DNA of 64,000 bases from Ancylobacter defluvii (lineage in GTDB: Bacteria > Pseudomonadota > Alphaproteobacteria > Rhizobiales > Xanthobacteraceae): the NCBI RefSeq assembly GCF_018390605.1, contig NZ_JAHBGD010000019.1:135031-199030 (forward strand). Direction: 5' to 3'. Below the pieces are notes generated by a model, which saw only the letters and a list, made by a program, of their open reading frames with translations, ran no database searches and was not told the DNA's origin. Position 1 is the stretch's first letter. Each line of letters starts with the position of its first letter. Below, piece after piece: positions 23,057-37,547 of this stretch. Position numbers and translations under genes: made by a program.

Positions 23057-23602
23057 CTATTCCTTGCCGCCCGCCTCCGCATAAGCCTTGCGCAGCGTGT
23101 CGAGCTCGGGGCAGCCAGTGCGGCAAAAGATTCTGAGGGTGACGAGGTTCTCCCGCGCCTTGTCGAGCCTGCCGATGGCAAGAAACAATTCCCCTTGATA
23201 TTCAATGGCCTGACGGTGGGTCGGGTCGAAATACAGCGCCTCGCGGTACCAGCGGTCCGCCTCGTCGTAGCGCTTGAGGTTGCGCAGGCTGTAGCCGAGC
23301 AGGTTGAACACATCGGCATGGCGCACCCGGGTCGCGAGATCGCCCAATTCGGACGCCGCCTTCTCATAGTCCCCCGAATAGATCAGTGCGCGGATGGGCG
23401 CGAGGTCCGGGAGGGCGTCGGAAGGCGGGGTATCGACAGCCCCCGCCGCGCTGGCCGCCCCCACCACCAGCGCCAGCACCGCACCTCGGACGAGCCTGCG
23501 CCAGCCTCGGCCGCCAGTAGGGTGAGGTGTACGATGAGACCGAAACCGGACTAGCGCTGTCCGATCAGGCCGAAACGCCCATGGCATGGCCGACCCGCTC
23601 AT
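23057..23602 (-). CDS. Exported TPR-repeat protein
   Basis: The 181-aa protein has a basic N-terminal region, a hydrophobic stretch LVRGAVLALVVGAASAAGA (a signal peptide or membrane anchor, about residues 36-55) and then two or three tetratricopeptide repeats; DVFNLLGYSLRNLKRYDEA followed by DRWYREALYFDP is a clear TPR. A short Cys-containing tail (FCRTGCPELDTL) follows. The ATG at 23602 overlaps the stop of the ABC ATPase gene by 4 nt, so it could be translationally coupled to the sulfonate-type operon; an ATG five codons in is an alternative. The first 35 residues are unusual and the start is uncertain. Its role is unknown. Confidence 0.7.
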   Translation of the reverse strand: MSGSAMPWAFRPDRTALVRFRSHRTPHPTGGRGWRRLVRGAVLALVVGAASAAGAVDTPPSDALPDLAPIRALIYSGDYEKAASELGDLATRVRHADVFNLLGYSLRNLKRYDEADRWYREALYFDPTHRQAIEYQGELFLAIGRLDKARENLVTLRIFCRTGCPELDTLRKAYAEAGGKE

Positions 23603-24375
23603 GCCGCCGCCACGTGCACGGCGTAGTCGCCCATCTCGCGCAGGATATCCCGCTTGATCGCCGCGAAGGCGGCGCTGCCGCGGTCGCGTTGATGCGGCAG
23701 GTCGACGGTGATCTCCCTGACGATGCGGCCGGGATTGGCGGTCATCACCAGCACCCGGTCGCTGAGATAGATCGCCTCGTCGACGTCGTGGGTCACCAGG
23801 ATCATGGTGGTCTTCTCGATCCGCCAGATGCTGAGCAGTTCCTCCTGCAGCCGCAGCCGCGTCAGCGCGTCCAGCGCCCCGAGCGGCTCGTCGAGCAGCA
23901 GGATCTCCGGCCGGCCGACCAGGCCGCGGGCGATGGCGGCGCGCTGCGCCATGCCGCCGGAGAGCTGGTAGGGATAGACCTTCTCGAAGCCGCGCAGCCC
24001 CACCAGCGCGATGTGCTCGGCGATGGTGCGCTTCTTCTCCTCGCCGCTCAGGCCGGCATTCTCCAGACTGAGGCCGATATTCTGCTCCAGCGTCAGCCAG
24101 GGAAGCAGGCGGTGGTCCTGAAAGACGATGCCGCGATCGAGGCTGGTTCCCCGGATCGGTTCTCCATGCAGGCGGATGGTGCCGGAATAGTCGTCGTCGA
24201 GCCCGACCACCAGCCGCAGGATGGTCGACTTGCCGCAGCCGCTCGGCCCGACGATGGACACGAACTCGCCGTCGGCGACATCGATGTTGATGTGGTCGAG
24301 GATCTTCAGCGGACGGCCGTCGACGTCGTAATGCTTCTCGACGTCGTGGATTTCGAGATTGCCGCGTGCGGTCAT
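23599..24375 (-). CDS. Sulfonate/nitrate-type ABC importer ATPase (SsuB/TauB-like)
   Basis: The 258-aa ATPase has Walker A GPSGCGKST, Q-loop VFQDHRLLPWLTLEQN, signature LSGGMAQRAAIARGL, Walker B LLLDEPLGALD and H-loop LVTHDVDEAIYLSDRV, typical of SsuB/TauB/NrtD. The frame is open far upstream, but ATG 24375 shares an ATGA with the stop of the preceding gene and gives the family N-terminus, so it was chosen. It serves the permease at 26723 and the binding protein at 27644. Unusually, two binding-protein-like genes lie between it and the permease gene. Confidence 0.93.
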   Translation of the reverse strand: MTARGNLEIHDVEKHYDVDGRPLKILDHINIDVADGEFVSIVGPSGCGKSTILRLVVGLDDDYSGTIRLHGEPIRGTSLDRGIVFQDHRLLPWLTLEQNIGLSLENAGLSGEEKKRTIAEHIALVGLRGFEKVYPYQLSGGMAQRAAIARGLVGRPEILLLDEPLGALDALTRLRLQEELLSIWRIEKTTMILVTHDVDEAIYLSDRVLVMTANPGRIVREITVDLPHQRDRGSAAFAAIKRDILREMGDYAVHVAAA

Positions 24376-25451
24376 GAGGGAAGAGACTCCAGCGCTTCGT
24401 CGAGATAGGAGGCGTCGGCCCAGTCGCGGCTGTCGAAATCGCGGCTGATGTAGCCGTGCTCGACCAGGAAGCGCTTCTGCAGGTCGATGCCGGCGAGCTT
24501 GCGCGGCGTCAGCGCCGGCAGGAAATCGGTGCCGGCGATGGCGGCGGCGGTGTCGGCAACGCTCGGGTGATAGGTGACGCGGTGAAGGATCGCCGCGCCG
24601 GCCTCGCGATTGCCGTCGAGCCAGCGCGCCGCCCGCACCGTGGCGCGCAGGAAGGCGACGACGATGTCGCGGTTCGCCCTGGCGAAGTCGGTGTTCACGG
24701 TCAGCGCATAGGGGCTGTTGGAAACCTGCAGCGCCCAGTCGGGATGGCGGGAGAAATCCTCCACCTGCTTGAACCCGCCGGTCCGTTCCAGCCCCAGCGC
24801 GCGGCCGTGGCTGGCGAAGATGGCATCGATCTCGCCGGCTTCCAGCGCCCGCGCCTCGGGCGTGAAGACGAGATCGCCGCGCCGCTTCGCCCATAATTCG
24901 GACGGACGCGATGCCTCGCCGAAGCCGCGGTCGTCATTGGCGATATCGACGATCTCCACATCGGCGCGGGACAGGCCGGCGAGCGCCAGCGCTTTCAGGA
25001 TGCCCTGCTCGGAGGTCGCCCGCCACCAGTCGATCCTGGCGGGATTGGCGCTCCGCGACAGCCCGAAGCGCCGGCCCTTCAGCGCCGCAACGCTGCGGGC
25101 GGCATCGTCGGCCCGCACCACGATGGTGCCGCCGTGCTGCGTTTCGGTGAGGCCGATCAGCGTGGTATCGACATTGTCGGCCTTGGCCCAGATCGAGGGG
25201 ATGTTGCCGCCGTCGCGGAACAGATGCGCGAAGCGGTGGCTGAAATGCGGGAGGTAGCCCTGCTCCACCGGGAGCGAGCGCAGATAGGACAGCGACGCGC
25301 CGATCTTGCGCAGCTCTTCCTCGATCCAGCCGAACTCCTGCGCCACATTGGACGCCACGAAAGTCGGGCAGATGGTGTACCAGGCTTCGCGGGCGCCGAC
25401 CTTGACGGGGGCGGGCGCGGAAGCCGAAGGGCGTTCGAGAATATCGATCAT
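24372..25451 (-). CDS. DszB-like/SsuA-fold protein without signal peptide (paralog 2)
   Basis: The 359-aa protein has the NMT1/SsuA-type periplasmic-binding fold but no signal peptide, so it should be cytosolic. It resembles the desulfinase DszB: YTICP near the N-terminus, then FRDGGNIPSIW and LIGLT, parallel to SNCP, RFGGEIPP and LLGIT in DszB. C28, H69 and R79 correspond to the known DszB active residues C27, H60 and R70, with the His-x9-Arg spacing identical and an 8-residue insertion between Cys and His. It is a clear paralog of the upstream gene. ATG 25451 follows GACGGAG; ATG 25469, which overlaps the previous stop, is an alternative. It could be a sulfinate desulfinase or a cytosolic ligand-binding protein. 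Confidence 0.72.
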   Translation of the reverse strand: MIDILERPSASAPAPVKVGAREAWYTICPTFVASNVAQEFGWIEEELRKIGASLSYLRSLPVEQGYLPHFSHRFAHLFRDGGNIPSIWAKADNVDTTLIGLTETQHGGTIVVRADDAARSVAALKGRRFGLSRSANPARIDWWRATSEQGILKALALAGLSRADVEIVDIANDDRGFGEASRPSELWAKRRGDLVFTPEARALEAGEIDAIFASHGRALGLERTGGFKQVEDFSRHPDWALQVSNSPYALTVNTDFARANRDIVVAFLRATVRAARWLDGNREAGAAILHRVTYHPSVADTAAAIAGTDFLPALTPRKLAGIDLQKRFLVEHGYISRDFDSRDWADASYLDEALESLPS

Positions 25452-25468
25452 GATCTCCGTCCCCCGCA

Positions 25469-26554
25469 TCAGCCGCGCCGCAGCGACGTGAGGGCTTCTT
25501 CCAGATAGGAAGAATCCGCCCATTCGTTCACGTCGACATCATTGGCGATGTAGCCATGCGCACGCAGGAAATCGGTCTCGATGCGCAGCCCGGCAAGGTT
25601 CTGCTTCGACAGGTTCGGCACCAGATCGAAGTCGCGCAACGCGCGGGCGATGGCGTCGCGGTCGGCATAGATGGTGGTGCGGTAGAAGATGTCCGCCGCC
25701 GCCTCCGGATGGGCGTTGATCCAGCGGCCGGCACGGATGGCGGCGCGCAGCCAGGCCACCACGATGTCGCGATTGGCCTCGGCGAACTCGCGGCTCACCG
25801 TGAGGGTGCGCGGGGCATTGGCGATGCGCAGCGTCCAGTCCGGGTAGCGATCAAGATCCTCGATCACCCGGAAGCGGCCGGTCTGGGTGAGGCGGATGTC
25901 GACGCCGATGGAGTAATCGTAGATGGCGTCGATGGTGCCGGCGTCCAGCGCCCTCGCCTCCAGCATCAGCTCGTCCTGCCTGGTGGCGCGGCGCTGCGCC
26001 CAGATGCCGGCCGGGGTATCGGCGAGGCTTTCGGTGTGAGCGTCGGCGTCCTCGATATCGACGATCTCCACATCCTTGGCGGAGAGTCCGTGCAGGGCCA
26101 ATGCGGCGAGGATGCCGTGCTCGCCGGTGGCGCGGCGATGGTCGATCTTCTCGTTGCGCTGGCTCTTATAGAGGCCGAAGCGGCGACCCTTGAGATCGGC
26201 GACGCGGTGGATGTCGGAATCGGTACGCACCAGCACCTTGCCGGCCGGTTGCGCCTGGGTGAGGCCGAGCAGCACGGTGGGGCGCAGATCGGCCTTCGAC
26301 CAGATCGCCGGGCTGTTGCCGCCATCGCGCAGCAGCCGGTCGGAATCGTGGCTGTAATGCGCCGGCCAGGCGACGTCGGAGAGCGCCGAGCGCAGATAGG
26401 TCGGCTTCGCCCCGACGCGGGCCAGCTCATCATGGATCCAGCCGAGTTCCAGCGCCACGTTGGACGCCACCAGAACCGGGCAGATGGTGTAGATCAGCTC
26501 GCGCAGCAGCGGTTGCGCATGGGCTGCGATGGAACGGTCGACGGCGATGGTCAT
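25469..26554 (-). CDS. DszB-like/SsuA-fold protein without signal peptide (paralog 1)
   Basis: The 361-aa protein is the tandem paralog of the next gene; both share TICP-x2-VASNVA near the start and W-A-D-x-SYL-x-EAL at the end. It has no signal peptide or membrane segment. The putative catalytic set matches DszB (2-hydroxybiphenyl-2-sulfinate desulfinase): C25 in YTICPVL, H66 in AHYSHD and R76 in LLRDGGNSPAIW, again with ten residues between His and Arg. In most databases such proteins would be called ABC substrate-binding proteins. Position between the importer permease and ATPase genes, plus a DszA-family monooxygenase upstream, supports a role in C-S bond cleavage. Activity is inferred only. 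Confidence 0.72.
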   Translation of the reverse strand: MTIAVDRSIAAHAQPLLRELIYTICPVLVASNVALELGWIHDELARVGAKPTYLRSALSDVAWPAHYSHDSDRLLRDGGNSPAIWSKADLRPTVLLGLTQAQPAGKVLVRTDSDIHRVADLKGRRFGLYKSQRNEKIDHRRATGEHGILAALALHGLSAKDVEIVDIEDADAHTESLADTPAGIWAQRRATRQDELMLEARALDAGTIDAIYDYSIGVDIRLTQTGRFRVIEDLDRYPDWTLRIANAPRTLTVSREFAEANRDIVVAWLRAAIRAGRWINAHPEAAADIFYRTTIYADRDAIARALRDFDLVPNLSKQNLAGLRIETDFLRAHGYIANDVDVNEWADSSYLEEALTSLRRG

Positions 26555-26583
26555 GGCGGGGATCCTTTGCCGGATGTTGGGGG

Positions 26584-26700
26584 ACTCCCTCTCCGCGACG
26601 GGGAGAGGGCTGGGGTGAGGGGTCTTCGACGCTTCCCGAGCGCGTCTCCCCTCACCGACCCGCTGCGCGGGGCACCTCTCCCCAATGGGGAGAGGGAAAG
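26584..26700. repeat. Dispersed palindromic intergenic repeat, short copy
   Basis: This is an inverted copy of the element at 5391-5570. The shared core reads CCCCTCACCGACCCG here (26649-26663), and its reverse complement is at 5487-5501. Both ends form CTCTCC/GGAGAG arms. It lacks the two-hairpin internal block of the other copy. It separates the DszB-like paralog genes from the upstream permease gene of the same operon, so it may fold in the mRNA. Confidence 0.8.
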
Positions 26701-26722: not shown

Positions 26723-27565
26723 TCAGCCCTCGAAGCCCTGCTTCCAGCGCAGCACGAAGCGTTGCAGCAGCAGCATCAGCCGATCGATGGCGAAGCCGAC
26801 GACGCCGATGATGACCATGCAGACGATCAGCTGGTCGGTCATCAAGAGGTTCTGGGCGCGGAAGATCAGGTAGCCGAGGCCCTCCTGCCCGCTCAGGCCT
26901 TCGGCGGTGACCACCAGCGCCCAGGCGACGCCGGCGGCGTAGCGCAGGCTGACCATGATGCTGGGCACCGCGCTCGGGATCACCACGCGGCGGATCAGTT
27001 GCGAGCGGGTGAGGGTGAGCACCTTGGCGAGCTCGATATGGCTCTTCTCGACATTGCGGATGCCCTGCAGCGTGTTGAGGAACACCGGGAAGAACACCGA
27101 CTTGCCGATGACGAGGATCTGCGCCGGGGCGCCGAGGCCGAGCCACAGCACGATGAGCGGCAGCCAGGCGACGCCGGGAATGTGGCGGATGCTGTCGAAG
27201 GTGGGACCGAAGAAGCGCTCGACGTTCGACGACAGCCCCGCCGCCACGCCGAGTACCACCGCGGCGATGGAGCCGTAGACGAAGGCCTGGCTGACGATGT
27301 TGATCGAGCGCAGGAAGTCCTGATGCAGCGACTGGCGCGTCACCATGGCGACGAAGGCTTCCACCGTCGCCAGCGGCGAGGGCAGGAACACCGCCGGCAC
27401 CCAGGCGAGCCAGGAGGCCAGCGACCAGGCGATCAGAAGCCCTATCGGCAGGATGATGCCGATAAAGCGGCGGCCGGCGGGACGGCGCGCCGCGCGGGCC
27501 GAAGACGGGGTCTGCGCACCCGTATAGGGGCGGACGCCGAAAGTGGAGGTGGTTGCGTCGGTCAT
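26723..27565 (-). CDS. Sulfonate-type ABC importer permease (SsuC-like)
   Basis: The 280-aa protein has about six membrane segments starting with FIGIILPIGLLIAWSLASWL and an EAA-type loop, ELAKVLTLTRSQLIRRVVIP, which docks on the ATPase. The segment PGVAWLPLIVLWLGLGAPAQ is typical of SsuC/TauC/NrtB permeases. It lies 78 nt downstream of the binding-protein gene and 169 nt upstream of the first DszB-like gene, that gap being filled by a dispersed repeat. The solute is probably an organosulfur anion, by family and context. Confidence 0.92.
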   Translation of the reverse strand: MTDATTSTFGVRPYTGAQTPSSARAARRPAGRRFIGIILPIGLLIAWSLASWLAWVPAVFLPSPLATVEAFVAMVTRQSLHQDFLRSINIVSQAFVYGSIAAVVLGVAAGLSSNVERFFGPTFDSIRHIPGVAWLPLIVLWLGLGAPAQILVIGKSVFFPVFLNTLQGIRNVEKSHIELAKVLTLTRSQLIRRVVIPSAVPSIMVSLRYAAGVAWALVVTAEGLSGQEGLGYLIFRAQNLLMTDQLIVCMVIIGVVGFAIDRLMLLLQRFVLRWKQGFEG

Positions 27566-27643: not shown

Positions 27644-28810
27644 TCAGTAGATGGAATATTCGCCGCCCTTGAAGAACTTGCCGTCGACGAAGGTGGCGAT
27701 GTCCTGCTGGCTCAGCTTGCGGTCGGTGAAGACGTCGTCGCCATGGGCGATGTACCAGTCCTGGAACTCGCTGATGGCGTGGCGGACATTGTCGGCCGAG
27801 GTGTCGCCGGCGATGAACTCGTAGCCCGACGGGTCGACGATCTGGAACTTGGCGATGTTGACCGGCACGCGGGTGCCCTTGGAGATGATCGCCGCCGCCT
27901 CGTCGACATTGTCCTGGATCCACGCCGTGGCGCGGCGATAGGAGATCAGGAAGGCCTTCACCGCCTCGGGATACTGCTCGGCGAAATCGCGCATGGCGAA
28001 GAACGAGACGCGGCCGGCGCCATTCTCATAGACGCCCTTCTCCACCGTGCGGCCGACGATCTTCACCTTGCCGGAGAGATAGAGCGCGGCGCCGGAATTG
28101 TTGCCGATATGGGTGGCGAGCCCGTCCACGGCGCCGGAGAGCAACGCCGCATTGCGGGCGCCGTTGTTCTCCACCCCCTCATAGCGGATCTTGCCGGCCT
28201 TCAGGCGGGTGTCGAGCGGCAGGCCGGCAGCCTCGAAGGATTCGAACACCGAGGTGTAGGAGCAGCCGATGCGGTTGGAGCCGTAGACCTTGCCCTCCAT
28301 GTCGGCGATGGAGTTGATCTCGTTATTGTCGGCGCGGGCGAGCAGCGGCGTGCGGTACTTGTTCGACGCTTCCGACACCCAGACCACCACGGCATCGAGG
28401 CCGTTGGCCCGGTGCGCGGTAGCGGGATAGAGCATGCGCTGGGCGATGGCGATGGAACCGCGGTTGAGGCCGGCGGATTCGGCGCCCGACAGCTCGGCGG
28501 CGCCGGAGGCGATGAGATTGACCTCCTTGACGCCGATCTTGTCGAATTCCTCCTTGAAGATGCCCTTCTCCTGCGCCACCACCGACCAGGGATTGAGCTG
28601 GAGGTTGACGAAGGTCAGCGGCTCGGCGGCGCTCGCCAGCGGCGCGGAGACCGCGAGCGCGGCGGCGACCAGCGCCGCCTTGCCGAGGCAGGCCCCGAGG
28701 AATTTGCCGCGCAAGATTCTGGATGAGACCCTGGGCGAAATCTTGCTCGAAACCTTGCTCGAAACCTTGCCGAAGCCGCGCCCAGCGGCCGAACCCAACC
28801 TTTTTTCCAC
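27644..28810 (-). CDS. Sulfonate-type periplasmic binding protein (SsuA-like)
   Basis: The 388-aa precursor belongs to the NMT1/SsuA family. It has an unusually long basic N-terminus (about 35 residues with SSK-type repeats) before the hydrophobic signal core ending ...VSAPLASAAEP near residue 62. The mature domain begins LTFVNLQLNPWSVVAQEKG. GTG 28810 was kept because GGAGACGGAC lies just upstream; a start further in would shorten the odd leader, but no better start with a ribosome site was seen. It is the first gene of the importer operon and probably captures the substrate of the flavin monooxygenase encoded in the same region. Confidence 0.87.
   Translation of the reverse strand: MEKRLGSAAGRGFGKVSSKVSSKISPRVSSRILRGKFLGACLGKAALVAAALAVSAPLASAAEPLTFVNLQLNPWSVVAQEKGIFKEEFDKIGVKEVNLIASGAAELSGAESAGLNRGSIAIAQRMLYPATAHRANGLDAVVVWVSEASNKYRTPLLARADNNEINSIADMEGKVYGSNRIGCSYTSVFESFEAAGLPLDTRLKAGKIRYEGVENNGARNAALLSGAVDGLATHIGNNSGAALYLSGKVKIVGRTVEKGVYENGAGRVSFFAMRDFAEQYPEAVKAFLISYRRATAWIQDNVDEAAAIISKGTRVPVNIAKFQIVDPSGYEFIAGDTSADNVRHAISEFQDWYIAHGDDVFTDRKLSQQDIATFVDGKFFKGGEYSIY
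28745..28768. repeat. Two 12-bp tandem copies in the leader of the SsuA-like gene
   Basis: GCTCGAAACCTT occurs twice in direct tandem. On the coding (minus) strand it gives the VSSK-VSSK residues of the leader, a likely replication-slippage product that lengthened the signal-peptide n-region by multiples of four codons. Confidence 0.8.
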
Positions 28811-28993: not shown

Positions 28994-29443
28994 TCAGAAC
29001 GGCAGGACGGTTCGCGACGAAAGCACCTCCATCGAGAAGCGCGACGTGACGTTCTTGGGCGAGGCGCCCTCGATCAGGCGATTGTAGAAATCGTCATAGG
29101 CCTGCATGTCGGGCACGACGACGCGCAGCAGGTAATCGATGTCGCCGGCCATGCGGTAGGAATCCATCACCTCCGGCATCGATTGCACGAGGCGGCGGAA
29201 ATTGGCCGCCCATTCGCGGGTGTGGTTGATCGCCTCCACCGCCACGAAGGCGGTGAGGCCGAGCCCGACCTTGCGCGAATCCACCAGCGCCACCCGGCCC
29301 TTGATGATGCCTTCCGCCTCCATCTTGCGGATGCGGTTCCAGCACGGCGTCTGCGACAGGTTCACCAGCCGAGCGATCTCGGCAATGGGCTTCGAGGCGT
29401 CGGCCTGCAGGATGCGCAGGATATTGTGGTCGATCTTGTCCAT
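28994..29443 (-). CDS. Lrp/AsnC-family transcriptional regulator
   Basis: The 149-aa protein has the Lrp architecture: an N-terminal winged helix-turn-helix (MDKIDHNILRILQADA; LVNLSQTPCWNRIRKMEAEG at residues about 26-45) and a C-terminal ligand-sensing RAM domain with SYRMAGDIDYLLRVVVPD. Length is standard. The ribosome site AAGGAGG is strong. It lies between the reductase gene and the importer operon on the same strand, so it is a likely local regulator responding to a sulfur amino acid or pathway compound; the effector is not known. Confidence 0.92.
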   Translation of the reverse strand: MDKIDHNILRILQADASKPIAEIARLVNLSQTPCWNRIRKMEAEGIIKGRVALVDSRKVGLGLTAFVAVEAINHTREWAANFRRLVQSMPEVMDSYRMAGDIDYLLRVVVPDMQAYDDFYNRLIEGASPKNVTSRFSMEVLSSRTVLPF

Positions 29444-29482: not shown

Positions 29483-30340
29483 TCACTTGAACGGGAAACC
29501 CAGCGCCTCGAGCTGGCGGCGCAGCACGTGCCGCCCCTTCAGCGAGGCGACGGCGTGCAGCCTCTGCAGCGCCAGCCGCGTCCAGGGCGTGGCGTCGAGC
29601 CCCTGCTCGGCGCGGAACGCCAAAGCGTGCCGGTCGGCGCGGGCCAGCGCCTCATCCTCGCCGACGGTCGAATAGACGTCGCGGTGCAGGATGCCCGGCT
29701 GCGGAATGCGCGGCTTGACGTCGGTCGCCACCGCCGGGTCCGGCCGGCCAATGGCGAGACCGACCACGGCATAGGCGCGCGGCGGCAGCTTGAGCACATG
29801 CGCCACCGCGGCGGCATCGTTGCGCAGCGCGCCGATATAGACCGCGCCGAGCCCGAGCGACTGGGCCGCCACCAGCGTATTCTGCGCCGCGAAGGCGGCA
29901 TCGAGCGAGGCGATGAGGAAGCTCTCGGTATAGTCGAGCCCGTCGCTGGTGAGGCCCTCGCGCTCGGCGAGGCGCTGCACGCGGGAGAGATCGGCGACGA
30001 AGACGAAGAACAGCCCGGCGGTCTCGATATGCTTCTGGTTGCCGGCGATGGCGGCAAGCTGCGCCCGCAGCGCCGGGTCCTCGACGGAGACGATGCTCAG
30101 GGCCTGCACATTGGAGGAGCTCGGCGCCGACTGCGCCGCCGCCACCAGCACCTCCCGCGTGCCCTCGGCGAGCGGCTCGGGCGAGAAGGCGCGCACCGAA
30201 CGGTGGTTCAGCAGCACGGAAAGCGTCTCGCTCCAGGGCAGCCCGGCAGCGGCGGCCGGCTCGCGATAGCGCTTCTGCAGCGCCTCGGGCGCCACGGCCT
30301 CGGCGTCACGGAAATGCTCGGCAGGAGTGATCTCGTTCAT
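29483..30340 (-). CDS. Nitroreductase-family oxidoreductase (NfsA-like, possible flavin reductase)
   Basis: The 285-aa protein is an FMN-dependent, NAD(P)H-oxidising nitroreductase-fold enzyme. Visible motifs are the FMN-contacting NHRSVRAFSPEPL and QSAPSSSNVQALSIV, and GLGAVYIGALRND, all typical of the NfsA/FRP subgroup, many of which act as flavin reductases. ATG 30340 was chosen because it gives the family N-terminus; the open frame continues upstream as a shadow of the neighbour. A plausible job is to supply reduced FMN to the flavin monooxygenase encoded at 31797. It is 23 nt downstream of the FAD/NAD(P)-binding gene. Confidence 0.87.
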   Translation of the reverse strand: MNEITPAEHFRDAEAVAPEALQKRYREPAAAAGLPWSETLSVLLNHRSVRAFSPEPLAEGTREVLVAAAQSAPSSSNVQALSIVSVEDPALRAQLAAIAGNQKHIETAGLFFVFVADLSRVQRLAEREGLTSDGLDYTESFLIASLDAAFAAQNTLVAAQSLGLGAVYIGALRNDAAAVAHVLKLPPRAYAVVGLAIGRPDPAVATDVKPRIPQPGILHRDVYSTVGEDEALARADRHALAFRAEQGLDATPWTRLALQRLHAVASLKGRHVLRRQLEALGFPFK

Positions 30341-30363
30341 GGTCTTGTCTCCGAATGGGATTT

Positions 30364-31787
30364 TCAGGCCACCTGCCGGGCCGCCGCCTCGGCCCGGTGG
30401 GCGAGGAGGACGGCCAGCCGGGTGGCCTGGTCGATCTGCTCCTTGAGCGAGCTTGCCTCGAACAGCTCGCCGCGCAAGGGATGGCCGACCGCGAACAGCG
30501 TGTCGGAGATGCGTCCCTCGCTGTCGACGAGCGCCAGCGTCGCCGGATCCGCCCGCACGCCGACGCCCACGGGGTGCGGCACGGCATGGCCCCGGCGCAA
30601 CAAGTTGCGCACCAGCGGGTCGTCGATGCGGGTCCAGTCGAACTCGAAGCCGAGGCTGCTCACCACCCGATCGGCGTCGAGGTGAAGCGGCGCGCCGCCG
30701 CCCTTGGGACGCAGGACGGCGCGCAGACCGGCGCGCAGACCGGCGTCGCCCGGCTCGATCCCGGTGACGGTGCCGGCCAGATGGCGCAGCCGGCCCTCGG
30801 CCTGCGCCCGGGCGAAGAACGCGTAGGAGGACGGCGCGCCCCGGTGCATGGCGAGGTTCCAATAGGGCAGCAGGCGGCGAGCCAGCCGGGTCCGCTCGCG
30901 ATTGGCGAGCCCGGCCCAGATCGCCGCCGCATGCTGGCGGAACAGCGGCGGCAGGCTCTGCCAGTCGCCCCCGCCGCCGCCACGGCCCGGCGCTCGCACC
31001 GGATCCAGCGCAGCACCGAGCGCGCATCGCGCGGCAGCTCGCCCGCCTGCGGCGTGCCGGGCCATGGCGCGACCTCGCGGCGCGGCGCCACCAGCAGCCC
31101 CCGGCGGGAGACCACGGTGTAGCGGCCGCGAAAGCCGCGCTTCTCCAGGCTCACCACCGCATCCAGCATCGACAGGCCGGAGCCGAGCAGCAGGACATCG
31201 GCGGCGGCCTCGACACCCGCGAAGGCATCGGCGGCGAAGATGTCGCTGACATAGGCCGGATGGCCGAGAAGCCCGACGGCGAGCGCTGGCTCGCGGCGGT
31301 GCAGCCCGGTGGCCAGCACCACCCGCCCGGCGGCAAGCGCGGCGCCGGAGGCCAGCGTGAGCGTGTGGCCGTCGACATCGACCACCCGGTCGCGGCGATG
31401 GGTGAAGCGTACCCGTCCGCCCGCCCTCCTCACCGCTTCCGCCAGTTCGCGTTCGAGATAGGCGCCGTAAAGCGCACGCGGCGGCGATGCCTGGGCGATG
31501 TCGCCAGCCGGCGGCGCCCAGCGCCCGGCTTCGGCCTCGGCGCTCAGCCAGTCGAGGAAATGCCGTTCCGGCTGGTTCTCGTGCAGGGCGAAGCCGCCGG
31601 CAAGGCCGTTGACGACGTGATCGGGCTCGCTCGTGGCATAGGCGATGCCGCGGCCGAGCCGAGCCGCCGGCTCGACCACCGTCAGGTCGAGCCGGCCGGT
31701 GCTGGAGGCGATGAGGCGCAGCGCGGTCACCGCGCCGGCGAAGCCGCCGCCGACGATGGCGATGCTGTGGGGATCCGGGAGCGTCAT
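30364..31787 (-). pseudogene. FAD/NAD(P)-binding oxidoreductase gene with frameshift
   Basis: The N-terminal part, read from ATG 31787, has the FAD-binding SIAIVGGGFAGAVTALRL, the family block VVNGLAGGFALHENQPE and a second dinucleotide site VLLLGSGLSMLDAVVSL. Near the C5 run at 30968-30972 (G5 on the coding strand) the reading frame changes: adding one G there joins ...RWIRCERRAVAAA to GDWQSLPPLFRQHAAAIW and continues through LLPYWNLAMHRGAPSSYAF to a stop at 30364. The joined product would be about 474 aa, normal for this HI0933/FAD-NAD(P)-binding group. Either the gene is broken or the assembly dropped one base in a homopolymer. It sits between the flavin monooxygenase (9 nt) and nitroreductase genes. 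Confidence 0.85.
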
Positions 31788-31796
31788 AGCGGCCGT

Positions 31797-33143
31797 TCAG
31801 GCGCTGGCGCGCAGATGATCGCCGGCGAAGCGGCTGTCGGGACGCGGCAGGCCGTAATGGTCGCGCAGGGTGCGGCCGCGATATTCGGTGCGGAACAGAC
31901 TGCGCCGGCGCAGCAGCGGCACCACTTCGTCGGCGAACGCGTCGAACCCGCCGGTCAGCCAGGGCGGCATGATGTTGAAGCCGTCCGCCGCGCCGTTCTC
32001 GAACCATTGCTGGATCTCATCGGCGATGCGCTCCGGCGTGCCGGCGAGAACGAAGTGGCCGCGCCCTCCGGCGAGGCGGTTGATCAGCTGGCGGATGGTC
32101 GGGTTCTCGCGGTCGAGAATGCCGACGATGAGCTGGAAGCGGCTCGCCGCGCCGATGGTGCCGTCGATATCGAGCAGATGGCGCGGGAACGGGCCGTCGA
32201 GATCGTAGCCCGACAGGTCGATGCCGGTCATGCGCAGCAGCTGGTGCAGCGAATATTCCGGCTGGATCAGCTCGTTGAACTCGTCCTCCAGCGCCTTCGC
32301 CTCCGCCTCGGTCGAGCCGATGAAGGGGCTGAGGCCGGGCAGCACCTTGATGTGCTCGGGACGGCGGCCGAGCGCGCTCGCGCGCGCCTTGATGTCGGCA
32401 TAGAAGGCCTGCGCGCTGCCGAGCGTCTGGTGCGCGGTGAAGATCGCCTCGGCATAGTGGGCGGCGAAGGAGCGGCCATCCTCGGAAGAGCCGGCCTGGA
32501 CATAGACCGGGCGTCCCTGCGGCGTGCGCGGCGCGTTGAGCGCGCCCTTCACCCGGAAATGCTTGCCGACATGCTCGATGGGGTGGATGCGGGCGGTGTC
32601 GGCGAACAGTCCGCTCGCCTGGTCGGCGACCACGGCCTCGTCCTCCCAGCTGTCCCACAGCTTGGTGACCACCTCGACGAATTCCCGGCTCCGCTCATAG
32701 CGCTCGGCATGCACCGGATGCTCTGCGAGGCCGAAATTCTGCGAAGCGGCGGCCTGCGAGGTGGTGACGATGTTCCAGCCGGCGCGGCCGCCGCTCAGAT
32801 GATCCAGCGAGGCGAACAGCCGGGCGAGGTTGTAGGGCTCGTTATAGGTGGTGGAGGCGGTGGCGATCAGCCCGATATGGCTGGTCACCGCGCCGATGGC
32901 GGCCAGCCAGGTGATGGGCTCGACCCGGTAGCGGGCGGCGTAGCGGATATTGTCGGCGAGCACCGGGCCATCGGCGAAGAACAGCGAATCGATGGTGGCG
33001 GCCTCGGCGCGTTTGGCGAGGTCCTGGTAATAGGCGATGTCGTTGAGCCGGCTGATGTCCGTGCCCTTGTAGCGCCAGGCGGCCTCGTGATGGCCGCCGG
33101 GATAGACGAAGAAGTTAAGCGACAATTGGCGGCGCTGGCTCAT
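31797..33143 (-). CDS. Flavin-dependent monooxygenase, DszA/NtaA/SnaA family
   Basis: The 448-aa protein is an LLM (luciferase-like) two-component monooxygenase that uses reduced FMN and oxygen. Diagnostic blocks are LSLNFFVYPGGHHEAAWR at the N-terminus, IDSLFFADGPV, LDHLSGGRAGWNIVTTSQ, and GRPVYVQAGSSEDGRSFAA. These are typical of NtaA, SnaA, DszA and related enzymes that split C-N or C-S bonds. In this cluster, with two DszB-like proteins, a sulfonate-type importer and a reductase, an organosulfur substrate is the most likely. It is the first gene of the minus-strand unit; an AT-rich promoter-like stretch lies upstream. Confidence 0.9.
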   Translation of the reverse strand: MSQRRQLSLNFFVYPGGHHEAAWRYKGTDISRLNDIAYYQDLAKRAEAATIDSLFFADGPVLADNIRYAARYRVEPITWLAAIGAVTSHIGLIATASTTYNEPYNLARLFASLDHLSGGRAGWNIVTTSQAAASQNFGLAEHPVHAERYERSREFVEVVTKLWDSWEDEAVVADQASGLFADTARIHPIEHVGKHFRVKGALNAPRTPQGRPVYVQAGSSEDGRSFAAHYAEAIFTAHQTLGSAQAFYADIKARASALGRRPEHIKVLPGLSPFIGSTEAEAKALEDEFNELIQPEYSLHQLLRMTGIDLSGYDLDGPFPRHLLDIDGTIGAASRFQLIVGILDRENPTIRQLINRLAGGRGHFVLAGTPERIADEIQQWFENGAADGFNIMPPWLTGGFDAFADEVVPLLRRRSLFRTEYRGRTLRDHYGLPRPDSRFAGDHLRASA

Positions 33144-33246: not shown

Positions 33247-34335
33247 CTATAGCGCACGCAAAAAGGCGACGAGGGCGGCGCGCTCGGTCGCGTCGAGGTC
33301 GCGCGGGCGCAGCAGCGTGTCGCGACGGGCCGCCTCGGCGTGGAGCGGATGTCGGGCTTCCGCCTCGTTGCGCACCCAGACTTCGCCGCCGCCACGGGCA
33401 TAGAGGTTCACCACGCCTTCGAGGCTGGGGAACAGGCCGTTATGCATATAGGGCGCGGTGCGGCCGACATGGCGCAGGCTGGGGGTGCGGAAGCGGCCGG
33501 CATCCTGCACCTCGCCGGTGAGGCGGAAGCGGCCGAGATCCTCGCGCGGCTCACCGAAGGCCGACAGGCCGAGATTATGCGCGCCGCCATCGGCGAGCGT
33601 GGGGCCGGAATGGCAATTGGCGCAGCCGGCCTTGGTGCGGAACAGATGCAGGCCGCGGATCTCCTCGTCGCCGAGGCTGCCATAGTCACCGCCGAGGAAA
33701 GCCTCGAAGCGGGTCGGCGCGTCGAGGCCGCCGAGATAGGCGGCGAGCGCGGCGCCGAGACGGCCGGCGTCGATCGCGCCCTCGCCAAAGGTGGCGGCGA
33801 CGAGCGGGCGATACTCCGCCAGCCCGGCCACCCGGACCGCGACGACGGCGGCATCGGCATTGGCCATCTCGTCGCGCTGCGTCAGCGGGCGCAGCGACTG
33901 GGCGGCGAGCGAGCGCTCCATCCCCTCCCAGCCGAAGCCCGCATAGCGGGCGACGCCGAGCAGCGAGGGGGCATCGCGCGGAGGGGCGGCGGTGGCCGCC
34001 GGCCACAACGGGCGCGGATCGGCGAAGCTATGGGAGGGATCGTGGCAGCTCGCGCAGCTCATCGCCCCGGAGGCGGAGAGCCGCGGATCGCCGAACAGCG
34101 TCGCGCCGAGCCGGGCGAGCGCCGGATCTGGCGGCGGCAGCGGCGCCGGCACGCCGAAGGCGACGAAATTGGCGCCCGGCTCCAGCTCGGGGGCCGGCCA
34201 TTGCGCCGGCGGGCGGGCATAGAGCGCACGCAGCGACGCGGCTTCAGGAACATCCGCGCTGCGGCTGCCTGCCATGGCGGCGCCGGCGAGCCCGAGCAGC
34301 AGCGCGGCCGCCCGTGCCCGGCAGAGCCGCCTCAC
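33247..34335 (-). CDS. Di-haem cytochrome c peroxidase/MauG-family protein
   Basis: The 362-aa exported protein has a signal peptide (RAAALLLGLAGAAMAG) and two haem-binding CxxCH motifs, CASCH near residue 95 and CANCH near residue 240. APYMHNGLFPSLEGVVNLY near residue 310 is a conserved block of the bacterial di-haem peroxidase/MauG family. It reduces peroxide or oxidises a partner protein in the periplasm. The ATG overlaps the stop of the Sco gene by 4 nt (coupled). The third member of the unit is a solute-binding protein. Confidence 0.9.
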   Translation of the reverse strand: MRRLCRARAAALLLGLAGAAMAGSRSADVPEAASLRALYARPPAQWPAPELEPGANFVAFGVPAPLPPPDPALARLGATLFGDPRLSASGAMSCASCHDPSHSFADPRPLWPAATAAPPRDAPSLLGVARYAGFGWEGMERSLAAQSLRPLTQRDEMANADAAVVAVRVAGLAEYRPLVAATFGEGAIDAGRLGAALAAYLGGLDAPTRFEAFLGGDYGSLGDEEIRGLHLFRTKAGCANCHSGPTLADGGAHNLGLSAFGEPREDLGRFRLTGEVQDAGRFRTPSLRHVGRTAPYMHNGLFPSLEGVVNLYARGGGEVWVRNEAEARHPLHAEAARRDTLLRPRDLDATERAALVAFLRAL

Positions 34336-34937
34336 GAGGTGCCGAGCAACCGCCGCAGCCGCGCCAGCTGCGCCTCGTGCGGGGCGCGATAGTCGATGGC
34401 GTCGGCGATCCGGCCCTGGGCATCGACCAGGAACAGCACGGCGGTGTGCTCCATGGTGTAGCCGCCATCCGGCTGCGGCACCCGGCGATAGGTCGCCTTG
34501 AAGGATGCGGCCGCCGCCGTCGTCTCCGCCTCGCTACCATGGAGGCCGGTGATGCGTGGATCGAAGGCGCCGAGATAGGCGGCAAGCTGCTCCGGATTAT
34601 CGCGCGCCGGATCGACGGTGACGAACAGCACCCTCAGCCGATCCGCCTCCGGCCCAAGCTCAGCCAGCACCTGCGACAGCTCGTAGAGCGCGGTCGGGCA
34701 AACCTCCGGGCAGGAGGTGAAGCCGAAGAACAGCACATAGGGCCGGCCGCGCAGCGCGCTCTCGTCGAGACGCTTGCCGTCATGAGTGGTCAAGGTGAAG
34801 CGCGAGGGCGCCTCTTGCGCCTCGCCGGGAGAGGCGAGCGCCAGGAACAGGGCAAGGAGCGGGAGCAGCGCCTTGATCAGTGACAGTCCGGCGCGTCCTG
34901 CTCCAGATAGACCTCCAGCGCGACATTCGTCGCCCAT
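34332..34937 (-). CDS. Sco1/SenC-family copper/redox protein
   Basis: The protein (201 aa from the chosen ATG) is a thioredoxin-fold Sco protein. It has a membrane anchor or signal segment KALLPLLALFLALASPGEA, the copper-binding CxxxC in FFGFTSCPEVCPTAL, FVTVDPARDNPEQL and the third ligand His in YTMEHTAVLFLVD. Sco proteins deliver copper to cytochrome oxidase or act as thiol reductases. Start choice is difficult: ATG 34937 overlaps the upstream gene by 61 nt and gives a long n-region; no ATG, GTG or TTG lies closer to the hydrophobic core. It is coupled to the di-haem peroxidase gene. Confidence 0.85.
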   Translation of the reverse strand: MGDECRAGGLSGAGRAGLSLIKALLPLLALFLALASPGEAQEAPSRFTLTTHDGKRLDESALRGRPYVLFFGFTSCPEVCPTALYELSQVLAELGPEADRLRVLFVTVDPARDNPEQLAAYLGAFDPRITGLHGSEAETTAAAASFKATYRRVPQPDGGYTMEHTAVLFLVDAQGRIADAIDYRAPHEAQLARLRRLLGTS

Positions 34938-35701
34938 TCGCCGGTCTTCCGATCCCAGAAGCGGGAATCGGCGAGCGCGGCCAGCGTCGAGCGCAGCGCC
35001 TCGGCCGGCGGCGCCTGGCTGCCCGGCCGGGTGCCGTCGGCCGGCAGCGCCACGACCAGCGGTGTAGAATCGCGCGCTGGCAGGGTGGCAGAAAATTTCT
35101 TCCATTCGGCTTCTCCAAACAGACGACGCAGCACCACCTCGTCATGGATGGCGGCGTCGCATTCGCCGGTGCGCACCTGCATCAAGGCGAGCGCCGGCAC
35201 CGGCTGGACAACTTCCTGCCCGCCGACGGCGCGCACCAGGCGGCGGGCGCGATCATTGGAGGCGACCACGCACACCTTGCGGCCGGCGAGCCCCTCCCAG
35301 GAACGGATATCGGTATCGGTGCGCATCGCCACCGACAGGCCGGACTGGTAGCCGCTGGGCAGCAGCTCGACGCCCGAGGGAAGCGCCCCGTCCTGCGGCG
35401 CCACGGCGAGGTCGATGCGGCCGGCGGCGAGCGCTTCCGCCGCCTGGTCGCCAATGTCGACCAGCTCGACCTTGCGGCCGAGGCGGCGGCCGATCTCGGC
35501 GGCGAGTTCCAGATCGAAGCCGTCCTGCGTGTAGAGCCGCGCCGCCGGCACGTCGGCCTTGGGCGGCACATGGGCGACGCCGATCCGCAGCGGCGCCGGC
35601 GCTGCCGACCCGGCCACCGCACTCGCCGCCAGCAGCATGAGCGCCGCAGCCCAACCCGCCAGGCGCTGGTGCTGCAGACATTTTCCGACCGTCGCCTTCA
35701 C
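34877..35701 (-). CDS. Family-3 extracellular solute-binding protein
   Basis: The 274-aa precursor has a signal peptide (GWAAALMLLAASAVAGSAA) and the bacterial family-3 binding-protein fold, with YTQDGFDLELAAEIGRRLGR, a signature region of amino-acid and XoxJ/MxaJ-like receptors, and RIDLAVAP. No permease or ATPase of an amino-acid importer lies nearby; instead it heads a unit with Sco and di-haem peroxidase genes, reminiscent of binding-protein-like proteins that accompany periplasmic quinoprotein or cytochrome systems. GTG 35701 was chosen for its GGAGGAG site 5 nt upstream; the frame is open further upstream without support. Confidence 0.82.
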   Translation of the reverse strand: MKATVGKCLQHQRLAGWAAALMLLAASAVAGSAAPAPLRIGVAHVPPKADVPAARLYTQDGFDLELAAEIGRRLGRKVELVDIGDQAAEALAAGRIDLAVAPQDGALPSGVELLPSGYQSGLSVAMRTDTDIRSWEGLAGRKVCVVASNDRARRLVRAVGGQEVVQPVPALALMQVRTGECDAAIHDEVVLRRLFGEAEWKKFSATLPARDSTPLVVALPADGTRPGSQAPPAEALRSTLAALADSRFWDRKTGEWATNVALEVYLEQDAPDCH

Positions 35702-35909
35702 CCGCTCCTCCGCTGCGTTGGTGTCGCCACCAGCCTGCCCCGGCGCCGGGAGAAAAATCGTCTCTCTCCCCGCGCCCATTCGGCGGGCTGATCCAAATCC
35801 GGACGCAAGGACCGAAAACGCCTCCGCTTTTCCGCTCCTAGGCTGATCGTTGCCTTCCTCGCCCTGCGCGAGGGAGGCGAACGCCACCTCGATCAGCCCG
35901 GAGACCGCC

Positions 35910-37547
35910 ATGACCGTCCATGCCACCACCGCCGCCTTCGCCGCTGCGGGCGATGCCCCCGTGTCCGCGATTTCCGCCGAGGAGCTGCGCGCTGCGGTGC
36001 TCGGCCCGGAGGAAGTCGCGGTGGTCGACGTGCGCGAAGGCGGGCGCTTCGAGGCCGGGCACGTCTCGGTGGCGGTGCCGCTGCCGCTGAGCGAGATCGA
36101 GCTGAAGGTGGAAGCGCTGCTGCCGCGCCGGTCGATCCGGCTGGTCGTCACCGATGACGATGGCGGCGAGATCGGCGAGCGCGCCGCCCGCCGGCTGGCG
36201 CAGATCGGCTATTCCAATGTCCGACTGCTGGCAGGCGGGCTCGCGGGCTGGCAGGCCGCCGGATTCGAGCTGATCACCGGGCAATATTCGCTCAGCAAGG
36301 CGCTCGGCGAGTTCGTCGAGCGGCGCTACCACACGCCGCGGATTTCCGCGACCGAGCTGCGGCAGCGGATCGAGGATGGCGGGGTGGTGGTGCTGGACAC
36401 GCGGCCGATCGAGGAATTTCACCACATCAGCATTCCCGGCGGCGTGGCGGCTCCCGGCGTCGAACTGCTCTACCGCATCTTCGACGCCGTTCCATCTCCC
36501 GATACCCCGGTGGTGATCAATTGCGCCGGCCGCACGCGCGCCATCATCGGCGCGCAGGCGCTGCTGAATGCCGGCTTCCCCAACCCGGTGGTCTCGCTGG
36601 AGAACGGCACCGCCGCCTGGCTCCTCGCCGGGCTGGAGCCGGCAAAGGGCGCCGACACCCGGCTGCCGCCGCCCAGCCCCGAGGGGCTCGAACGGGCGAA
36701 GCAGGCCGCCGCACGGGTAGCGGAGCGCTTCGGCGTGCGGCGCATCGATGCCGACGAACTGGCGGCGCTGCGTGCCGAGGCCGGCAGCCATACGCTGCAT
36801 CTGTTCGACATCCGCACGCCGGAAGAATACGCCGCCGGCCATCTGCCCGGCGCGACCTCCGCCCCCGGCGGGCAGCTGGTGCAGACCACCGACAGCTTCG
36901 TCGGCACCCGCGATGGCCGGATCGTGCTCGTCGACGACGCCGACGGGGTGCGGGCGACGCTGACCGCCTCCTGGCTGATCCAGCTCGGCTTCGAGCACGT
37001 CTTCGTCCATGCCGCGCCGGCCGCAGCGCTGACGGAAGCCGGCGTTGCGGCGCCCCGCATCGCCGGCGGCGAGCCGGTGGTCGCCGGGGTGTCGCCGCAG
37101 CAGGCCGACGCGCTGATCCAGGACGGCGCGGTGGTGCTCGATGTCGAGCCGGCCCCACCCTATTTCCGTCCCCGCCGCTATGTGCCGGGCTCCTTCATCG
37201 CCCGCCGCTCGACGCTGGCCAGCGGCGTCGCCCAGGTACCCGGCACCGGAGCGATCATCCTGACCTCGGCCGACGGGCGGCTCGCCGCTCTGGCCGCCTC
37301 GGAGCTGGAGAAGCGGACGGCGCGCCGCGTGGTGGCGCTCGACGGCGGCACCGATGCCTGGGTCGCCGCCGGCCTGCGGCACCGGACCGGCCTCGACCAG
37401 CCGGCGCTGCTGGCGGAGGAGGCGCTGGCGCCGGCGCCGACGCTGGAGGAACGGCGGGTGTCGCTCGACGCCTATGTGCGCTGGGGCGACGTCATCACCG
37501 ATCAGCTGCAACGCGACGGACTGGTGCGCTTCCGCGCCTTCGGCTGA
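35910..37547 (+). CDS. Four-domain rhodanese-like sulfurtransferase
   Basis: The 545-aa cytosolic protein has four consecutive rhodanese-homology domains at about residues 15-125, 140-250, 280-385 and 395-505. Only domain 2 has the catalytic cysteine (C205 in VINCAGRTRA); the equivalent loops of domains 1, 3 and 4 read VTDDDGG, LVDDADGV and LTSADGR. This pattern resembles multi-domain thiosulfate sulfurtransferases in which extra domains are structural. ATG 35910 follows a CCGGAGACC site; upstream open frame is not supported. It is divergent from the binding-protein/Sco/peroxidase unit, with 208 nt between. It may handle sulfane sulfur or cyanide; the nearby organosulfur cluster makes a link to sulfur metabolism plausible. 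Confidence 0.9.
   Translation: MTVHATTAAFAAAGDAPVSAISAEELRAAVLGPEEVAVVDVREGGRFEAGHVSVAVPLPLSEIELKVEALLPRRSIRLVVTDDDGGEIGERAARRLAQIGYSNVRLLAGGLAGWQAAGFELITGQYSLSKALGEFVERRYHTPRISATELRQRIEDGGVVVLDTRPIEEFHHISIPGGVAAPGVELLYRIFDAVPSPDTPVVINCAGRTRAIIGAQALLNAGFPNPVVSLENGTAAWLLAGLEPAKGADTRLPPPSPEGLERAKQAAARVAERFGVRRIDADELAALRAEAGSHTLHLFDIRTPEEYAAGHLPGATSAPGGQLVQTTDSFVGTRDGRIVLVDDADGVRATLTASWLIQLGFEHVFVHAAPAAALTEAGVAAPRIAGGEPVVAGVSPQQADALIQDGAVVLDVEPAPPYFRPRRYVPGSFIARRSTLASGVAQVPGTGAIILTSADGRLAALAASELEKRTARRVVALDGGTDAWVAAGLRHRTGLDQPALLAEEALAPAPTLEERRVSLDAYVRWGDVITDQLQRDGLVRFRAFG

Follow-up and report, generated by a model that had tools for sequence, protein, structure and literature searches.

Could two genes that automated annotation would assign to the binding proteins of an ATP-binding cassette (ABC) transporter encode cytosolic enzymes of sulfur metabolism? 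The question is raised by a 64,000-nucleotide stretch of Ancylobacter defluvii DNA (the window), in which two tandem genes on the minus strand, within an operon for an ABC importer, encode DszB-like proteins, here called A (25469..26554, 361 amino acids) and B (24372..25451, 359 amino acids). In fuel biodesulfurisation, sulfite is released by DszB, which the relevant passage of PMC12168087 describes as slow and product-inhibited. We favor, with moderate confidence, the reading that A and B are cytosolic, Cys-dependent desulfinases that release sulfite from an imported, oxidised organosulfur compound, because of their catalytic core, single Cys, cytosolic location, sulfur-poor composition, and operon.

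Two cytosolic proteins with one cysteine each

A and B share 50% identity, and each contains one Cys, located in the motif YTICP. The motif residues of A are Y22, T23, I24, C25 (codon 26480-26482), P26, H66 (codon 26357-26359), H69, R76 (codon 26327-26329), G78, and G79, and the same pattern recurs in B with a shift of three residues, giving C28 (codon 25368-25370), H69 (codon 25245-25247), and R79 (codon 25215-25217). The sequence features reported in an earlier note on this DNA are all confirmed: the Cys-to-His distance is 41 residues in both proteins (C25-H66 and C28-H69), the His-to-Arg distance is 10, the Arg (R76 in A, R79 in B) leads into DGGNSP or DGGNIP, and neither protein has a signal peptide. 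The start of B is most likely the ATG at 25451, which has GGAG upstream; the listed open reading frame (ORF) begins at 25523, within A. By eye, no long hydrophobic stretch occurs in the 56 in-frame codons upstream of A or in the 29 upstream of B. With the YTxCP strand, H-x2-H, and R-x-G-G all present and a signal peptide absent, both proteins belong to a wide group of DszB-like cytosolic Cys proteins, and as read from their sequences, they lack the signal peptide and export that mark SsuA/TauA-type binding proteins.

Pfam NMT1 matches A and B, and the NCBIfam model SsuA_fam gives them 70.9 and 67.9 bits, below its cut-off of 163.5, which the operon's own signal-bearing substrate-binding protein (SBP) also fails to reach at 70.3 bits; for an annotated DszB, the sole NCBIfam match is the SsuA model, below the cut-off. 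The expectation that automated labels would read ABC binding protein was borne out by plasmid matches: of the 25 labelled ones in the 60 rows listed (from 92 records), 24 carry this label. The NMT1 and sub-threshold SsuA_fam matches, along with the pairwise closeness of five exported relatives described below, would suit A and B being SsuA/TauA-type binding proteins of the usual exported kind, with start codons or signals that had been overlooked. The upstream in-frame codons encode no hydrophobic segment, however, the operon already has a signal-bearing SBP of its own, and the Cys/His/Arg triad is absent from all five exported relatives, so we regard missed export as highly improbable.

A DszB-like fold and catalytic core

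In a sequence search of solved structures, DszB was closest to both proteins (E = 2.4e-10 for A and 6e-6 for B), and the family profile matches DszB at 4.1e-48 over its full length versus 6.2e-10 over about 100 residues for SsuA. Predicted folds (predicted local distance difference test, pLDDT, 91.7 for A and 93.3 for B) gave DszB chains as the top three Foldseek matches (E 1.3e-20 to 1.5e-18 for A and 4.1e-18 to 1.2e-17 for B), followed by SsuA 3uif (8.9e-16 and 9.6e-16). The fold is also shared with Thi5 (4esx, E = 3.2e-13 for A), which would allow A and B to be Thi5/NMT1-like pyrimidine synthases. DszB ranks much higher, though; Thi5 has a Cys-rich active-site motif, as opposed to the single Cys in each of A and B, and no thiamine gene was found among the operon genes scanned, which leaves a pyrimidine synthase scarcely credible.

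An alignment to DszB had been proposed as a check in the earlier note, and in the profile alignment C27, H60, and R70 of DszB, together with Y24, P28, G72, G73, and P76, match identical residues in A and B. S25 is replaced by Thr and Y63 by His, and N26, Q65, E74, F203, and L226 are not kept. DszB has the same His-Arg spacing as A and B, as had been claimed, and a Cys-His distance of 33 versus 41, the difference coming from two 4-residue gaps. According to the passages on DszB in PMC6100217, C27 donates a proton to the substrate, H60 and S25 act as a dyad, R70 belongs to an R-X-G-G motif that DszB homologs conserve, and the H60 loop turns helical upon substrate binding. The His lies within a predicted helix in both of our models (64-68 in A, 62-71 in B).

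Conservation of the catalytic residues among homologs

Scanning a genome collection (84,980 species) with a pattern that includes the Cys gave 420 related loci, 80 of them listed; the best three named loci, 91-92% identical in A, belong to Ancylobacter. Rows of the family alignment (A2) were chosen by the triad motif, 8 of 124 ORFs being dropped for lacking it, and many came from the Cys-pattern scan, so its invariant Cys, His, Arg, Gly, and Gly columns were dropped as circular evidence for the triad. Homologs from whole-protein or profile searches form a first set of 26 full-length by place (28 rows, two being one gene read twice), which leaves out A, B, and three near-identical Ancylobacter pairs. 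Here His and R-x-G-G are kept in 26 of 26 and Cys in 22, with Ser in the other four, which are second copies. A second, partly overlapping set comprises 42 unique ORFs of DszB-like type from the fetched loci, none of them itself retrieved by the Cys pattern; 38 of these have the Cys, 37 have the His, and all 42 have R-x-G-G. The same searches also returned five exported, motif-less binding proteins and one fragment.

Across all 124 DszB-like ORFs (80 of them from the Cys-pattern scan, and some under duplicate locus numbers, L013/L031 and L014/L042), Cys occurs with H-x9-R-x-G-G in 116, and exactly one Cys is found in 100 of these 116, which were chosen for the triad. Cytosolic paralogs exist with Ser or Arg in place of Cys, or with another residue in place of His. 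In four genomes (L119-L122, L125-L128), a DszB-like gene with YTRCP adjoins a second copy with YTHSP that keeps His and R-x-G-G; by their sequences, the YTHSP copies are natural Cys-to-Ser variants.

Exported relatives

The five exported relatives (L015-L019), homologs from the same genus, carry twin-arginine-like signals; they have RIGSTAP where A and B have YTICP, and neither the His nor the Arg has an aligned counterpart. The earlier note had held that a random absence of the triad among signal-bearing homologs would speak against an enzyme, and the pattern is the opposite: all five lack the triad, most DszB-like ORFs carry it as counted above, and by a simple hydrophobicity rule a hydrophobic N-terminal segment occurs in one of the 124 DszB-like ORFs (Cys-less and over-extended) versus 42 of 81 binding-protein ORFs. 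The latter figure is low, since many binding-protein ORFs seem to extend too far upstream or to be read in the wrong frame and some truly lack a signal, and the script put two DszB-like rows (L014, L042) on a wrong motif. The split has exceptions in signal-less paralogs with a changed Cys or His and in signal-less, triad-less NMT1 proteins of actinobacterial operons. Proteins of this last kind are encoded at L068:14203-15129 and at equivalent places in L043, L051, and L090, in bds-like operons, and are unaligned over Cys, His, and Arg.

Against the A2 profile, A scores 392 bits and B 395, DszB-like ORFs covering the model more than 280, DszB 163, and exported SBPs at most 148; by this score DszB is not well separated from the exported SBPs. 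The five relatives align over profile positions 72-163 and 193-352, mostly 193-352 and so beyond the N-terminal catalytic region, and DszB over 14-346, catalytic part included. They may be surviving relatives of the protein from which the cytosolic enzymes arose, with a C-terminal lobe nearer to that of A and B than DszB's is.

The operon

The one-strand run (minus) begins with an NtaA/DmoA/DszA-family flavin mononucleotide (FMN)-dependent monooxygenase without Cys (31797..33143; TIGR03860, 568.5 bits against a cut-off of 279.7), whose best solved match is YtnJ/MoxC (3.2e-101), ahead of DszA (1.5e-94). It continues with a gene for a flavin adenine dinucleotide (FAD)/NAD(P)-binding protein (30364..31787; PF13454); a Cys-less NADPH nitro/flavin reductase of NfrA/FRP-like type (29483..30346), a candidate supplier of FMNH2; an Lrp/AsnC-family regulator of 149 amino acids (28994..29443); the SBP of the importer (27644..28810), whose N-terminal sequence reads as a signal peptide and which lacks the Cys/His/Arg motif; and an SsuC/TauC-like permease (26723..27565; Pfam BPD_transp_1, with NCBIfam SaoP, SsuC, and TauC below cut-off). 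A and B follow, and then an ATPase of nitrate/taurine/sulfonate type (23599..24375; Pfam ABC_tran, with NCBIfam SaoA, NtrCD, TauB, and SsuB all below cut-off) and a tetratricopeptide repeat (TPR) protein (23057..23602), which is also found at the operon end in relatives. The reading frame of the FAD/NAD(P)-binding protein gene changes near 30967, and because four related genomes have this gene unbroken (unbroken matches in L023 and L025, single ORFs in L024 and L130), the change is a frameshift or an assembly error. Scanning for promoters and terminators gave no promoter-like and one terminator-like site, not above shuffled sequences.

Cys plus Met amount to 0.55 per 100 residues in A, 0.28 in B, 0.45 in the monooxygenase, and 0.35 in the reductase, against 1.85-4.36 in eight control proteins of the window that we chose; the importer genes (1.29-2.14) and the TPR protein (1.66) are less low than A and B. 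A passage of PMC8557817 notes that DszA, DszB, and DszC contain little Cys and Met.

The sequence at 26580-26700, between the permease gene and A, is G+C-rich and repeat-like and contains short inverted stretches (CTCTCCCC/GGGGAGAG). Genes for a di-haem cytochrome c peroxidase of the MauG family and SCO1/SenC stand just upstream of the operon (33247-35105, minus). Nearby on the plus strand (35850-37547) is a gene for a protein of several rhodanese domains, with 0.53 Cys plus Met per 100 residues; L024 and L025 have matches to it, and L131 has a similar protein.

Gene context in more distant relatives

We surveyed the context of the 80 listed scan loci with phmmer against reference proteins (E 1e-5) within 5 kb, both flanks being full in 72 of the 80. 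Luciferase-type monooxygenase matches occur in 52 loci, against an expectation of about 4% estimated from the 18 such genes in the 5.28 Mb genome of the window; a sulfonate-type permease or ATPase occurs in 39, related binding proteins in 40, and DszC-like proteins in 7.

These results bear on whether A and B might be cytosolic subunits that bind a ligand and regulate the ABC importer without being catalysts, as does the SBP-like regulatory domain of NrtC/CmpC. Such a role would suit the position of DszB-like genes between permease and ATPase, both here and in a Spartobacteria locus (L026), the lack of a signal peptide, the presence of the CmpABCD regulatory domain among the fold matches (9uak, E 1.2e-10 for A and 4.5e-9 for B), and the nearness of exported binding proteins in sequence. 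Yet the other 41 of the 80 loci show no match to the references for a sulfonate-type permease or ATPase, DszB comes out far ahead in the ranking of solved structures, and it is not evident why a ligand sensor would need a lone, almost always kept Cys plus His and Arg. We consider a regulatory role rather unlikely.

In Gordonia (L068), the order is binding protein, permease, ATPase, DszB-like protein, two luciferase-type monooxygenases, an aldolase-like protein, and a binding protein, and the table of bdsABC in PMC3868597 gives the same order; the accompanying passage reports that extracts of E. coli with cloned bdsABC convert benzothiophene to o-hydroxystyrene. In strain IGTS8, a non-plasmid "SsuA/DszB" protein is encoded between Ssu-type genes and was apparently raised in dibenzothiophene culture, as the table passage of PMC8557817 reads. 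On rhizobial plasmids (L004:5726-13192 on S. meliloti pSymA and L006:5697-13134 on an Ensifer plasmid), two DszB-like genes stand with an acyl-CoA-dehydrogenase-family gene and an NtaA/DmoA monooxygenase, clusters that resemble a 4S-type operon. A sulfolane degrader without dszB (PMC6395730) and a Gordonia without a DszB analog (PMC11852219) have been described, in passages silent on the subfamily of A and B.

Within the clade of A and B, neighbors are more varied. The Rhizobium member has as neighbors (L003:5436-10864) genes annotated as 2-hydroxyacyl-CoA dehydratases and activases, and rhodaneses and SulP occur there too. The Spartobacteria order is binding protein, permease, two DszB-like genes, and ATPase, and further along (L026:14554-17863) are an activase-dehydratase fusion and a second dehydratase-like gene, the double-cubane model being below cut-off. 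In a verrucomicrobial locus (L027:15202-17971), genes for a corrinoid protein and two UROD/MtaA-like methyltransferases lie near the DszB-like genes; the MtaA/CmuA model is below cut-off, and the second methyltransferase was read from sequence only. L132 has a SulP match and a pyridine-nucleotide-disulfide oxidoreductase with a rhodanese domain. It is conceivable, but quite doubtful, that A and B belong to a small desulfinase clade supplied with sulfinates in two ways: by a flavin monooxygenase in Ancylobacter and, in Rhizobium and Verrucomicrobia, by ATP-driven reductases of double-cubane-like type or by corrinoid methyltransferases; if true, this would provide an oxygen-independent route to a non-aromatic sulfinate.

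Conservation, duplication, and selection

A survey of four further genomes of the genus (L023, L024, L025, L130) covered the operon genes other than the regulator and recovered the set, with the permease and neighboring ATPase of L023 and the permease of L024 not flagged. In L130 (genome G023), A occurs without B, and 60 bases separate A from the ATPase gene. Among 30 genomes listed as its own or the same genus, A-like genes are found in 5, and 5 others have only weak matches, which are the exported relatives (L015-L019). With the Rhizobium member as query against 397 genomes of the order, three matched, the genome of the window among them.

Both copies are under purifying selection, since ratios of nonsynonymous to synonymous substitution (dN/dS) are 0.09-0.24 for A across five genomes and 0.08-0.17 for B across four. 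A and B are sister copies in a wide, quick tree (Shimodaira-Hasegawa-like approximate likelihood ratio test, SH-aLRT, 85), and their relation is not settled in a more careful one. Approximately unbiased (AU) tests do not reject the grouping of A (p 0.405) or B (p 0.322) with L026_9950, L027_8712, and L116, so one duplication and two (for the A/B pair and the verrucomicrobial pairs) are indistinguishable. The clade of A and B, 12 rows, has an SH-aLRT of 100 in the wide tree, and long branches make the branching order of DszB, this clade, and the actinobacterial clade unsure.

Weighing the desulfinase reading

If A and B are desulfinases, the ABC importer would take up an organosulfur compound, the flavin monooxygenase, fed by the flavin reductase, would oxidise it to a sulfinate, and A and/or B would cleave the C-S bond of the sulfinate and release sulfite as the last step of a sulfur-scavenging operon, one Cys acting with the aid of His, Thr, and Arg. 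We infer the enzymatic nature of A and B, the sulfinate substrate, and the order of these steps.

A number of results weigh against this reading. Identity to DszB is only 20-24%, and the five exported relatives outscore DszB in pairwise comparison (51.6-55.3 versus 41.6 bits with A and 52.4-61.0 versus 28.0 with B), on which account we lowered our confidence in a desulfinase slightly and raised two of the alternatives. Against the family profile these relatives reach 143.6-148.3 bits, close behind DszB at 163.1, and their match shows that the step from binder to enzyme would be small. In the wide tree the split of DszB and the family from four binding proteins has an SH-aLRT of only 83, with long branches. 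Paralogs without Cys or without His persist in other genomes, and given these the scaffold may have other uses. The 80 scan loci are not independent, and in 15 of them none of the references (monooxygenase, acyl-CoA-dehydrogenase-like, sulfonate-ABC, binding-protein) has a match within 5 kb, flanks being shorter than this in 8 of the 80. The Gordonia locus is equated with bds from gene order and not from BdsA sequence, and the bds experiment as described in PMC3868597 tested the whole operon and not the desulfinase by itself. Among the operon genes identified, DszC, the sulfur-oxidising dsz partner, has no counterpart, and the FAD gene that might replace it is frameshifted here.

The pocket also differs. 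At pocket positions of DszB, A and B have Tyr/Phe at F61, Ser/Phe at Q65, and Ile/His at L226, which we take to be a pocket residue; the differences between A and B are compatible with, but no proof of, different substrates, a possibility raised in the earlier note. F61, W155, and F203 form the biphenyl-binding pocket of DszB, according to the relevant passage of PMC6100217, and apart from the Phe of B at F61 the pocket residues, Q65, E74, and L226 included, are not kept in A and B, with the W155-bearing segment missing. Because this pocket is not conserved, aryl specificity cannot be transferred from DszB. Of the proposal of cytosolic desulfinases, the location, the DszB-like fold, and the catalytic core are supported, the fold and core by Foldseek ranking and alignment. 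A and B are not DszB orthologs as judged from pocket and operon partners, a DszA-family monooxygenase being there and an acyl-CoA-dehydrogenase-type DszC not being found among the operon genes scanned.

The changed pocket also fits with A and B being Cys-dependent enzymes of the same fold that act on something other than a sulfinate, for instance another oxidised sulfur or phosphorus compound. The varied neighbors of the clade (2-hydroxyacyl-CoA-dehydratase/double-cubane-like, corrinoid, and MtaA/CmuA-like methyltransferase genes) and the nearer relation of the monooxygenase to YtnJ/MoxC than to DszA would agree with this. The residues that are kept, however, are the sulfinate-handling ones of DszB, and sulfur-related neighbors (rhodanese, SulP, Ssu-like ABC) are found repeatedly in the clade, so we think another substrate class unlikely and retain the desulfinase reading.

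If that reading is true, a large, mostly mislabelled family with the DszB core and another pocket would offer new candidate desulfinases, and its reassignment would shift many genes from "transport" to "sulfur metabolism". What is new is the subfamily with its transporter-linked operon; the chemistry is not. DszB homologs with R-X-G-G (a passage of PMC6100217) and an "SsuA/DszB" protein (a passage of PMC8557817) are already published; the subfamily of A and B was not found in the open-access literature, most subscription journals lying outside that search.

Comparison with known systems

A and B resemble DszB in fold, in the single Cys, in the aligned C27/H60/R70/G72/G73 and Y24/P28/P76, and in the DszA-family monooxygenase of the operon. 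Unlike DszB, they come as two tandem copies inside an ABC-transporter operon in which no DszC was seen. The BdsA-type desulfinase of Gordonia terrae C-6 and the actinobacterial "SsuA/DszB" operons belong to the same wider family by profile score and likewise bring sulfonate-type ABC genes and flavin monooxygenases together, but they form a separate clade with another set of monooxygenases. The cytosolic regulatory domains of NrtC/CmpC share with A and B a signal-less, SBP-like domain tied to an ABC transporter, and their fold match is much weaker than that of DszB. Exported SBPs of the SsuA/TauA type have the same two-lobed NMT1 fold and a sulfonate-transport setting, but they differ in having a signal peptide and in lacking the Cys/His/Arg motif, and solved SsuA and TauA structures rank below DszB.

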